Positions 40,184 to 53,094 of a stretch of DNA of 64,000 nucleotides are shown in pieces. The translations under genes were made by a program, and so were the position numbers. The notes beneath the pieces are model-generated. The model had not been told where the DNA came from. It searched no databases and saw nothing but the letters and a program-made list of their open reading frames with translations. How positions within the stretch are numbered: the stretch's first letter is position 1; each line of letters starts with the position of its first letter. The DNA comes from Fragilariopsis cylindrus CCMP1102 (taxonomy: Eukaryota; Bacillariophyta; Bacillariophyceae; Bacillariales; Bacillariaceae), in assembly GCA_900095095.1 (NCBI GenBank), contig FMBT01000410.1, forward strand, positions 1 to 64,000, read 5' to 3'.

Positions 40184-42102
40184 CATGATTGCTACTGCGA
40201 CTGCGACTGTCACTGTTATTGCTATAATATTAGTTAGCAGTAGTATTCGTGGGAGTATTGTTGTTGTTGATGCATTTAGCTCACAACAAATTACTATTAC
40301 GCCTACTAAAGCTACTACTCTTAGTATTCTCGCCGGTAGAAGAAATATAATGTAATAGGAGTAGCGACCAGTGATTTTTGACGATGATGGAGACGCTACT
40401 CATGGATGTACTGCATCCTCATCATCGCCCTTCTCTTCGACGTCGACAATAAGGACAAGGATGATGACAACAACGTCGCTGAATTTATCCACCGATGACG
40501 ACGACGACGAAATAGAAAACAGTAATCTCATCAGTAGTATTAATACTATATTTGGTAAATTCTTTTCATTTTCATCTTAATGGCATTATGGTTACCATTA
40601 TTTGCAATTTGGGGTATACCAGCCTTGTGGATCATGCCAGATCATTTCCACCAAATTCGCCACAACAATTCCAAGCTGTTACTATTCTTATTGTATCCAA
40701 TCGTATCTATTTGTATTCATTAGCAGTAACAATTGTTGGATTGGCAGCCATACGTGGATCAAAATTCGATCCGCCCTCATTAGGACAACGACTTACCTCA
40801 GTAACAGAAGAATTATTAGTATTCGACCGTCCTCTACAAGTAGTTTTAGATAATAACAATAAGGAAGGAGAAGAAGAAGAAGAAGTAGTAATCGAAGGTG
40901 ACGAATCCGTACAAGAAGCTTCGAAAACACTACTATCACCACCATCACTACCATCACCATCATATATACAAAAAATGGTCGATGATTCTGGTTTAGAAGA
41001 AAATCTTGATAATGTAAATACAGAAACACAAGCTATATTATTACCAGTATTAGTTTCTGGTTTGTTAGCAGCATCAGTTTTATCATTACCGATATGGGAA
41101 GATGGAATAAATTTATTTGGAAGTGCATCCAGTACCACTACTGATAATAATGAATTATTTCTTCAGTTGAAAAAAGCAATTGCGGATATTATACCCGTCG
41201 TTAGTCAAGGTTGGAATGCATTATTATTAGCATTATTTACACGAGCAGAAATACGTCGTATTGGGTATGAATTATTTGGTTTAGAAATTACTAACATCGA
41301 TGAGGCAATTGATGGTGATTTAGAAAAATCAAGAAATACTGTACAAATTATTCTTGAAATTGTGATTGCAATATCAATTACAGGATACGGGGCATATTAT
41401 TTACAGTATTGGCCGGCATGTAATTTTGTGAATATGTCAATTGCTATATTAGTTGCACGAGCTATACAACTTAATACATTCCAATCTATCGTTGGTGCAT
41501 TGACATTACTTACCATCTACGATGGTGCATCAGTCTTTTTAATTCCAGCAGCAAATGCTTTCGTTGATAGCAGTAGCTCAAGCTCAAGCATTGTGGGCGT
41601 TGATTCCTCATTATTATTATCATCAACATCATCATCCTCAAATACACTAATAGCAGATGCGTCTGCATCAGCATCTGCTATGGGTTCTGTTGCGATCCAA
41701 AAGTTAACTTCTACATCATTTCAACCAGGATTATTGGTTGCTAAATTAGACGGTGATAAAATAACAGGTGCACTTGGATTAGGCGATGCAGTATTCCCAT
41801 CAATACTTGCAACATTTTTAAAGAGATTTGATAATGAACAACAAACATTATCAACATCAAAATCAACATCAACATCATTATCATTATTTGTTGTATCTTT
41901 AGTAGGATACATAATTGGGTGTATGCTATGTGAATTTGCACCAACAATTTCAACTGGTGGTTTACCAGCTTTAGTGTTTATACTACCATCAATGTTAATT
42001 TCGGTTACGGGTGGAGCAATAGTATCCAATCAATTTGATAATTTATGGAATTATAATTCATCATCGTCAGATCCTACTACTACAGGTAGTAGCAACAAAT
42101 AA
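40184..42102 (+). CDS. GxGD (presenilin/signal-peptide-peptidase-like) membrane protein with plastid-type presequence
   Basis: ATG at 40184 opens a hydrophobic signal ending VVVDAF-SSQQ, an ASAF-like cleavage context of diatom plastid proteins. Then follow a Ser/Asp linker, and membrane segments LWLPLFAIWGIPALWIMP and RIYLYSLAVTIVGLAAIRGS next to DPPSLGQRLTSVTEELL. The large intact frame (40552-42102) has about eight hydrophobic segments. Near its end it has LLTIYDGASVF (Asp codon 41521), GLGDAVFPSILATFLKRFD (Asp codon 41785) and GGLPALVFILPSML (Pro codon 41965). These are the YD, GLGD and PAL triad of intramembrane aspartyl proteases, in order and with plausible spacing. The early part changes frame at about four points, each but possibly the first fitting one missing base. 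Protease activity and plastid location are inferred. Confidence 0.65.
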
Positions 42103-42368: not shown

Positions 42369-43574
42369 TCATCGATGACTATTTATCCATCCTACCAATT
42401 GTTCTTTATTTGGTGCACCTTCTAAACGATCAATTTCATTCCCATTTGAGAATAAAACAAGTGTTGGTAATCCACCAACTTTTAATTCGGATGATAATGT
42501 AGGATTCTTATCACTATCCATTTTAATGATTCTTATTTTATCACCTTCATCTGATGCAATTTCTTTTAATAAAGGTGCAATCATTTGACATGGTCCACAC
42601 CATGTGGCATAGACATCCACTAACAATAATCCACTTCCTCCGACGAAATCCATTTCTTTTTTCACATCCTCTTCCATTAAATCAGATACTTCACCGGGTG
42701 TTAATAATCCTGTGGAACAATACACGGATGCTTTTTCACGTGCCTCCAATAATGCTTTCACTATATCCTCCTTTTCAAATAATCCAGCACGTGGTATCCG
42801 TCGACGACCTAATTCTTCACGTAATTCACGGACACGCATCCCTTTTAATTCTTCTAATGCCTTCGAACGATCAAATTTTAACAATTCTAATAATTCTAAT
42901 TCTAATTCATTATCACCATCTTTATTGAAAAACGTATCAGCATCTTCCTTTTTTTCGTGGGAATCCTTCTCCTCCTCGTTACTAACGCTATTATTGATGT
43001 ATTTGTTTGGGTTTTGTCGTGCATCGATTAATTTTACTATTAAAGATTCCTTATCAAAACAATCCGAAAAATCAATTTTTCTTTCTTTCAGTTCTGATTT
43101 CATTTCAGATAATCTCATAGCAGAAACTTCCACAACATCATCGGATAATAGTGATGATGATGATTGCGAATCGACATCATCTGATGATTGCGAATCGACA
43201 TTGTTACAGACATCATATGATGACGAATCAACAACGTCTGGTGATGAATCGACATCGGATGACGAATCGACGTCTGACGAGAATAACGTCGTTGTGGTAG
43301 TTGTTCTGGTTCGCTGGAATAATATATTGTAACTTTCTTGCTCGAAAGATTTCTTGATTGTTTGCTGTCGTCGTCGTGTTGTTGTTGTTGGAATGAACGA
43401 CCATCCTCTAACGACGACGATCAAACAAGACAATGCTACCATCACGAACACCATCGCGATATTATTTGTAGATGATGAACATCGTCGTCGTGTGCTATTT
43501 GAGCAATGCATGCTGATTCGTATATATTTCCGATACAGTATTGTTGTTAGTTTAGTCAAATAATACTGTACCAT
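42369..43574 (-). CDS. Plastid-type thioredoxin with N-terminal SAP-like helical motifs, 401 aa
   Basis: An intact frame. The C-terminal thioredoxin domain (about residues 295-401) has LLLVDVYATWCGPCQMIAPL with the WCGPC active site, IIKMDSDKNP and the cis-Pro loop GGLPTLVLF. Upstream are two helix-extended-helix motifs of SAP type: MRLSEMKSELKERKIDFSDC...LIVKL and MRVRELREELGRRRIPRAGL...IVKALLEA. The N-terminus has a hydrophobic signal (MVFVMVALSCLIVVVRGWSF) followed by IP, resembling an ASAF-type plastid presequence, then a Ser/Asp repeat region (DDVDSQSS, SSDVDSS). The true start may be an internal Met just before the signal (about 43455-43510) rather than 43574. It probably reduces disulfides of a plastid client; SAP-like motifs may bring it to nucleic acid. 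Confidence 0.85.
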   Translation of the reverse strand: MVQYYLTKLTTILYRKYIRISMHCSNSTRRRCSSSTNNIAMVFVMVALSCLIVVVRGWSFIPTTTTRRRQQTIKKSFEQESYNILFQRTRTTTTTTLFSSDVDSSSDVDSSPDVVDSSSYDVCNNVDSQSSDDVDSQSSSSLLSDDVVEVSAMRLSEMKSELKERKIDFSDCFDKESLIVKLIDARQNPNKYINNSVSNEEEKDSHEKKEDADTFFNKDGDNELELELLELLKFDRSKALEELKGMRVRELREELGRRRIPRAGLFEKEDIVKALLEAREKASVYCSTGLLTPGEVSDLMEEDVKKEMDFVGGSGLLLVDVYATWCGPCQMIAPLLKEIASDEGDKIRIIKMDSDKNPTLSSELKVGGLPTLVLFSNGNEIDRLEGAPNKEQLVGWINSHR

Positions 43575-51554: not shown

Positions 51555-53094
51555 ATGAGACTGTGGTTAGTCTCGTGGTCGTGGTCGGTGTCAGTGACGT
51601 TGGCCTTGGTAACAATTTTCTGGTCATCCTTGTCATCGAAGAACGGTAGCGGTGTTACTACTCACGCCTTTTCAGGAATTGACCCACAATCGAGTAATAA
51701 TGCAGTAAGGGTGTTGGTAACAGGCGCGGCAGGGCAAACTGGGCGACTTATATTATCCAAACTTGAACAGGATTATCGATACGAACCAAAAGGATTGGTA
51801 CGGAATGAACGATCAGCGAGGAATATTGTAAAAAGTGATGATACTCGATGCCCATTAGAACATGTTGTTATTGCAGATATAACAAGTCCAACATTCATTG
51901 AAGACCTGACGGATATAACAAAGCATAATAACGACGACAATGACAAAAACTCGAACAAAAACAACAGCAGCAACAGCAGCAACAACAACAATAACGGTCT
52001 TGAGAACTTAGATGCTATGATCATATGCACATCTTCAGTACCACGGATAAGAAAACGATCATTGGCAGTAATGTTGTTCAAAGCTCCTTGGAGGATGATC
52101 AGAGGACACCCCGCTGTTGATTTTAAATCGATGCGATTTGCTTGGAAATATGGTGGTTATCCTGAAAAGGTCGATTATCATGGACAGAAGGCACAAATTG
52201 ATTTAGCAAAACGACTAGGTATCCCTCATGTCATCCTTGTGAGTTCAATGGGTGGTACTGATCCAAACAACTTTTTAAATTCGGTCGGTAAAAGAACAAC
52301 AAAATCGTCAAGTAAAAGTAGTAAATCAGCCAGCAGCAAAGACGAAGGACACGGGGATATTTTACTGTGGAAACGACGAGCCGAAAAATACCTAGTTGAG
52401 GTACGTAATGCAATCTTGAAAGTTTCTTTTTTACTGCTATATTATTATACGAGCCTGACCTAACTATGCAACTTTTTAATGGATTATTTATACACTATAC
52501 TTTTATTGCATTTCTCACTTTTCTTGTTTTTGCTTCTTATTTTTACTACAGAGTGGTTTGGATTACACTATTCTTCATCCTGGTGGCTTAGTTGGGGATA
52601 CGCCCGGGGGACAGGAAGAATTTGTTTTAGACGTGGATGATAATTTGTATAGAATGGATTGTCAGAATCACGATCACGAAAATCCAAATTCCAATTCCAA
52701 GAATCGGCAGTCACATCGGTCGATGACACGAATCAGTCGAGAAGATGTAGCAGAGTTATGTGTGGCAGCGCTTAGTGCTGGTAAGGGTGAAAAGATGTCC
52801 TTCGATTGTATAACGTTACCATCCTCGACTGTCTCGTCATTGAAATCAATAGTAACAGCAACGACCGACAAAATCGACAGCAGCGATGATGAGGGTGTTG
52901 GTGCTAATGCTGGTAATGGCAGAACAATCAAAAATAGTATAGACACCAGCACCTCTACCGCAACATCGACCACGATGGCTGCAACCACAACGGCATCTGC
53001 AACATCAGTGACGACAACGATAGGTCGAAAATCAGCTGAAGAAACTCTCACAGAGTTTCTAGAACTATCTATTACAACGAATTACGATGTTTAA
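51555..53094 (+). CDS. Plastid-targeted atypical SDR (NAD(P)-binding), two exons
   Basis: Exons 51555-52400 and 52552-53094, intron 151 nt (GTACGT...ACAG). ATG 51555 (MRLWLVSWSW) is preferred over 51447 because it opens directly into a signal peptide ending THAF-SGID, an ASAF-type plastid context. The nucleotide-binding fold has VRVLVTGAAGQTGRLIL and DYRYEPKGLVRNERSARNIV. Later blocks YGGYPEKVDYHGQKAQIDLA, HVILVSSMGGTDPNNFLNSV, GDILLWKRRAEKYLVE then SGLDYTILHPGGL closely follow plant atypical SDRs such as Arabidopsis At5g02240/At2g37660. The frame is continuous across the splice (YLVE-SGLDY). An Asn run is inserted after strand 4 and a Thr/Ala-rich run near the C-terminus. The substrate is unknown. 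Confidence 0.88.

Follow-up and report, generated by a model that had tools for sequence, protein, structure and literature searches.

The window analyzed here, a stretch of 64,000 nucleotides, belongs to contig C778 in an assembly of 67.9 Mb and 818 contigs. It carries what we judge, at slightly better than an even chance, to be a nuclear gene whose product, an SPP-type (A22B) GxGD intramembrane aspartyl protease, is targeted to the complex plastid. On the best reading, its product would be one of two plastid-targeted A22B enzymes of this genome, and a much diverged one. Placement on the A22B (SPP) side of the family, and not with the presenilins, is firmly indicated by profile matches. Plastid targeting is likely for the second enzyme, encoded on contig C265, and somewhat more probable than its absence for the window protein, whose location, substrate, and activity are given below as predictions.

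The protease was encoded in a single open reading frame (ORF; 40552-42102, + strand, 516 codons from a TTG at 40552), in which the first ATG lies at 40588 and gives a protein of 504 aa. A Pfam scan matched this ORF to PF04258 (Peptidase_A22B) with E = 1.8e-20 (74.2 bits against a cut-off of 23.3), and protein residues 219-504 were aligned to profile positions 50-285 of 286. No other Pfam family was listed for the ORF at a maximum E of 10, in a scan whose filters remove most matches with E above about 0.1. The order YD, GLGD, PAL, with the first two in consecutive hydrophobic segments and PAL in the last, defines the family. The YD aspartate (TIYDGASVF, codon 41521-41523, +) was aligned with the YD of loci L003 and L005, and the GLGD aspartate (GALGLGDAVFPSILATFLKRFD, codon 41785-41787, +) was aligned in all rows of a three-row alignment. 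Both catalytic-type residues were kept in six of six rows when the five A22B genes of the genome were aligned with a bacterial relative (L016); the PAL motif (GGLPALVF, 41965-41973, +) was found in five of those rows, the bacterial row having PAT. The sequence-only reading had described YD, GLGD, and PAL in this order within hydrophobic segments, and the single open frame with its profile match above cut-off places that description far beyond chance. A chance occurrence of YD and GxGD was itself ruled out by the PF04258 E value.

The same reading had left the choice among the SPP, archaeal, and presenilin profiles to a search, of which the first part came out positive and the other two negative. 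Membership in the A22B family rather than among the presenilins is indicated because neither PF01080 (presenilin) nor PF06550 (archaeal PSH-type) gave a match in the Pfam scan at a maximum E of 10. NCBIfam returned sub-threshold matches only, the top one being the archaeal PSH protease NF041679 at 16.5 bits against a cut-off of 125; PSH-type membership was thus rejected along with presenilin membership. One relative was found in the PDB at E ≤ 1 (9k92, Signal peptide peptidase-like 2A, E = 3.6e-05). AlphaFold2, run on the window protein with a single sequence as input, gave a pLDDT of 37.5 and a pTM of 0.24.

Hydropathy was calculated as 19-residue means with a threshold of 1.3 that we chose, and nine peaks were obtained in the 504 aa from ATG 40588, with YD in peak 6, GLGD in peak 7, and PAL in peak 9. 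Together, profile, motifs, and hydropathy strongly support the GxGD/SPP identity that had been proposed. YD also falls in peak 6 of 9 in the gene on contig C451 and, counted after the signal core, in peak 6 of 9 in C265, an agreement in peak number that is in part luck. The peak of the window protein directly before YD (residues 277-295) is without an above-threshold counterpart in C451 and C265, so one N-terminal segment may be missing from the protein in its present reading; frame class 2 at 40555-40640 could provide it.

A PF04258 search of the whole genome returned 11 matches, which were grouped by contig and sequence identity into five genes: one SPP, two SPPL2-like genes (called by eye), C265, and the window gene (C778). 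The gene nearest to the SPP profile, C451 (400 aa), has no evident presequence. Of the two genes that we assign by eye to the SPPL2-like type, C62 has a copy (C393) that is identical over the 2,496 bases compared, and it combines a signal core and a PA domain, found among the A22B genes in C62 only, with a junction that lacks an aromatic residue (VDA↓VLPTA; the arrow marks the cut site). The other, C635, is 99.86% identical to its copy C145. By eye, C635 seems to have lost one base between GGKS and VMLDVATG, which breaks its frame, and in both C145 and C635 a TGA lies within the PF04258 match; these may be real mutations or assembly errors. Presenilin-family frames were also observed, two neighboring ones on G000:C526:83139-87090 and two on C159:18650-22566 (best PF01080 E = 1.2e-97), so this alga has both SPP-type and presenilin GxGD proteases.

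The second candidate enzyme, C265 (locus L005 1387-3204; G000:C265, about 454023-455840; - strand), is an uninterrupted ORF of 605 aa that matches PF04258 with E = 1.5e-46 (159.8 bits). Its N-terminus has a strongly hydrophobic core followed by PVFADA↓FSIINAPPLHAHSTRRTSITTKIGSKSQ, in frame with the protease. The signal core and ADAFSIINAPPLHAHSTRRTS lie in one frame, the junction reads ADA↓FSIINAPP, and the stretch after ADA↓FS is basic and poor in acidic residues; by its sequence this N-terminus would be a typical plastid-type presequence. When the window protein was searched against the genome, C265 was also its sole other hit (E = 6.2e-5, 40% over 63 residues), and BLASTP between the two gave 29% identity over 151 columns, mainly in the GLGD-PAL part. 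For bench tests, C265 is a better candidate than the window gene.

Upstream of the protease ORF, a putative bipartite plastid presequence (40185-40352, +) was found, with a hydrophobic core, a VDA↓FSS junction, and an acid-free stretch containing K and R. It begins at the ATG at 40185 as MIATATATVTVIAIILVSSSIRGSIVVVDAFSSQQ (MIATATA...VVVDAFSS), and the frame from this ATG reads MIATATATVTVIAIILVSSSIRGSIVVVDAFSSQQITITPTKATTLSILAGRRNIM and then a stop. There are no basic residues before the hydrophobic core. The putative signal core and the A↓F junction (IVVVDA↓FSS) were judged from the sequence itself. Codon scores were trained on 51 ORFs (27,317 codons), and the 40185 frame scored 0.289 per codon, a value reached by 155 of 462 true-frame windows and by none of 38 open wrong-frame windows, all of the same length and drawn from the training ORFs themselves. 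On these counts, the stretch 40185-40352 is very probably coding. A plastid-type presequence on the protease had been proposed from the letters alone, and that proposal fared in two ways: a coding-like stretch with a core and DA↓FSS does exist, but in another frame than the protease. The range 40184-42102 had been given for the whole protein, and it is not one ORF, with the ATG at 40185 rather than 40184.

Light-harvesting proteins provided the genome's own plastid presequences for comparison. The PF00504 family gave 104 matches in the genome (exon pieces and duplicate contigs included), from which it follows that the organism is a photosynthetic alga. Twenty of the 104 loci, chosen among the higher-scoring ones without internal stops, were examined by eye, and the junction was readable in 18 (not in L025 and L029), with the signal core cut off in one of these (L034). 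The junction was A/G↓F in 16 and A↓L in 2 (for example ASAAAFAPV, VSAFAPA, and VNALAPV). An A/G↓F junction after a signal core is the targeting style of diatoms and their relatives. As a control, 264 kb yielded 81 ORFs that do not overlap and are 200 aa or longer, of which 19 had a hydrophobic N-terminal core, and A[FW] occurred within 21 residues of the core in 3 of those 19. One of the three (window 51555-52460, +) has a signal-peptide core and THAFSG and is a possible plastid preprotein. The gene next to the protease (window 42369-43574, - strand), encoding a thioredoxin with an SAP domain, likewise has an N-terminus of plastid-type look (VVVRGWSFIPTTTTRRR).

Taken alone, the A↓F sign would be modest evidence. 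The plastid case is made because two of the five A22B genes share A↓F, and in one of the two the presequence is clean and in frame. Targeting of the window gene is supported indirectly, by the in-frame plastid-type presequence of C265 and by those of the light-harvesting proteins in this genome. The same control count bears on an unlikely alternative, in which the window gene's product is a divergent A22B protease that works in the ordinary endomembrane system. Its N-terminus would then be no more than an ER signal, or would belong to another frame lying upstream, and A↓F would be there by chance. To our knowledge, eukaryotic SPP and SPPL proteins are ER or endosomal, and Plasmodium SPP is reportedly ER-resident, as the title of one study has it. 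This setting, the broken frames between presequence and protease, and the three A[FW] cases among the 19 control ORFs would all suit the endomembrane alternative, whereas the paralogue C265 with its in-frame plastid-type presequence speaks for the plastid, and the one SPP and two SPPL2-like genes already present may fill the ER and endosome slots.

Plastid targeting of the window gene would depend on the 5' gene model at 40353-40640. Three clustered in-frame stops (40353-40364, +), caused by an intron or an assembly indel, break the presequence frame, which is then open again to about 40555, where a second stop follows. The reopened part (40365-40554, +, class 0) is a putative transit peptide or linker, with codon scores of 0.238 per codon at 40365-40453 and 0.176 at 40454-40554; around 40434, frame class 2 was best in a scan with a smaller training set. 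The stretch 40555-40640 (+) is frame-uncertain, with a donor-like GTAAAT at 40555 and no frame that scores clearly, and its class 2 reading would add a hydrophobic segment. From about 40626 the protease frame is coding-like (0.200 at 40626-40722 and 0.348 from 40722).

Presequence and protease lie in different frames, and joining them requires introns or small assembly indels within 40353-40640. Splice models with intron lengths of 40-400 bases (one intron) or 40-250 bases each (two introns) gave 31 one-intron and 494 two-intron solutions, and none stood out, the two-intron models being inspected for the best 25 of the 494. The likeliest first-intron donors, GTAGAA or GTAATA, are weaker than the GTAAGT and GTACGT that were read by eye in two sister genes. 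A two-intron gene with the GTAAAT donor at 40555 would fit, as would many other combinations. Single-base assembly errors are a possible alternative cause of the frame breaks. No second allele or copy of the window gene was found in the genome search, where it was single copy.

A gene in decay is a very improbable explanation of these breaks. The protease frame would then be intact while true frameshifts interrupt the 5' part and no precursor is made. This would account for a frame that changes several times in a span of 300 bases. The base apparently lost in C635 also points this way, since frame breaks then do occur among the A22B genes of this genome and are not confined to the window locus. 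Against decay, the 504-codon frame is open, both aspartates and PAL are retained, and the codon bias of the protease frame is no weaker than that of genes elsewhere: it scores 0.337 per codon at 41000-42099, where true frames average 0.235.

For a plastid-targeted protease, the following course is proposed. The 40185 stretch and the protease ORF would be joined in one transcript, through introns or by correction of assembly indels in 40353-40640. The precursor would enter the ER and be cleaved at DA↓F, pass through the periplastid space into the plastid, and settle in the inner envelope or the thylakoid membrane. There, the two aspartates would cleave transmembrane helices, the likeliest substrates being the thylakoid signal peptides that lumenal processing leaves behind, or membrane proteins that are short-lived or unstable. 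A second such enzyme, nearer to ordinary SPP, would be the C265 protein. The broader proposal, that complex-plastid algae have a plastid GxGD system with at least two nuclear A22B enzymes, of which C265 is SPP-like and C778 far diverged, stands a little short of an even chance.

Import could instead halt in the periplastid space, with the protein assisting the ERAD-like import machinery (SELMA) there, in the way that SPP assists ERAD at the ER, an alternative that we consider quite improbable. A diatom-like plastid is expected to possess an ERAD-derived import system. Elsewhere, SPP-type proteases are linked to ERAD, and the portion of PMC13328587 consulted ties them to it in rice and mammals. 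The cut sites speak against a periplastid halt: F follows the cut site in both C778 and C265, whereas periplastid proteins are usually without an aromatic residue there.

Relatives outside this genome were few. Among 89 candidate stretches in genome_contigs, one A22B relative was found, a distant Candidatus Vogelbacteria protein (L016), and three scans of viral_contigs confirmed none; the scans of both sets used a few short peptide patterns, which distant relatives can escape. PF04258 had no match in 14 control prokaryotes. A cyanobacterial origin is not suggested, because these controls, presumably including Synechococcus elongatus, were without the family. A tree of six rows (the five A22B genes and L016) had no supported fork, C778 and C265 were not grouped with support, and the longest branches were those of C778 and L016. 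A separate lineage for the window protein, which the sequence-only reading had raised, would be compatible with its long branch in this tree without supported forks.

We know of no presenilin/SPP family member that works in plastids; the class is known to us from the endomembrane system. No plastid A22 protease was found in the open-access papers and passages searched, and none of these papers combined 'periplastid' with 'signal peptide peptidase'. Within this coverage, the negative is weak evidence of absence. In a moss chloroplast-proteome study (PMC5095126), a legend that names TOC/TIC parts also spells out 'SPP' as signal peptide peptidase but does not say which enzyme is meant; we take this SPP, without proof, for the stromal processing peptidase. 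The passages of PMC4067076 on Chlamydomonas SPP1A state no location. If plastid targeting is true, these enzymes would be the third catalytic class of intramembrane protease in plastids, and an enzyme of the eukaryotic endomembranes would have been transferred to an organelle that descends from bacteria, with a role perhaps in the removal of thylakoid signal peptides or membrane proteins. The idea of a plastid A22B protease is directly testable in transformable diatoms using existing SPP inhibitors.

Among known systems, the window protein is most like SPP/SPPL (PF04258, MEROPS A22B), with which it shares the profile match and YD, GLGD...RFD, and PAL in order. Unlike SPP/SPPL, it has a plastid-type N-terminus, a Ser-rich insert between YD and GLGD, and an N-terminal half that lies outside the PF04258 profile, and its alignment identity to the SPP of its own genome is only 24%. 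C265 resembles it in combining A22B with a signal core and an A↓F plastid-type presequence and differs in being much nearer to canonical SPP and in having a Gln-rich loop. Rhomboid and site-2 proteases are known chloroplast intramembrane proteases and belong to other catalytic classes than the window protein. SPPA1 is a serine and not a GxGD aspartyl protease, with a fold and chemistry unrelated to A22B and only the name in common, and plant papers on a chloroplast 'signal peptide peptidase' can refer to it. This S49 enzyme, whose family has 14 matches in the present genome, is named 'signal peptide peptidase' and is chloroplast-located in plants, according to the part of PMC12729535 consulted.
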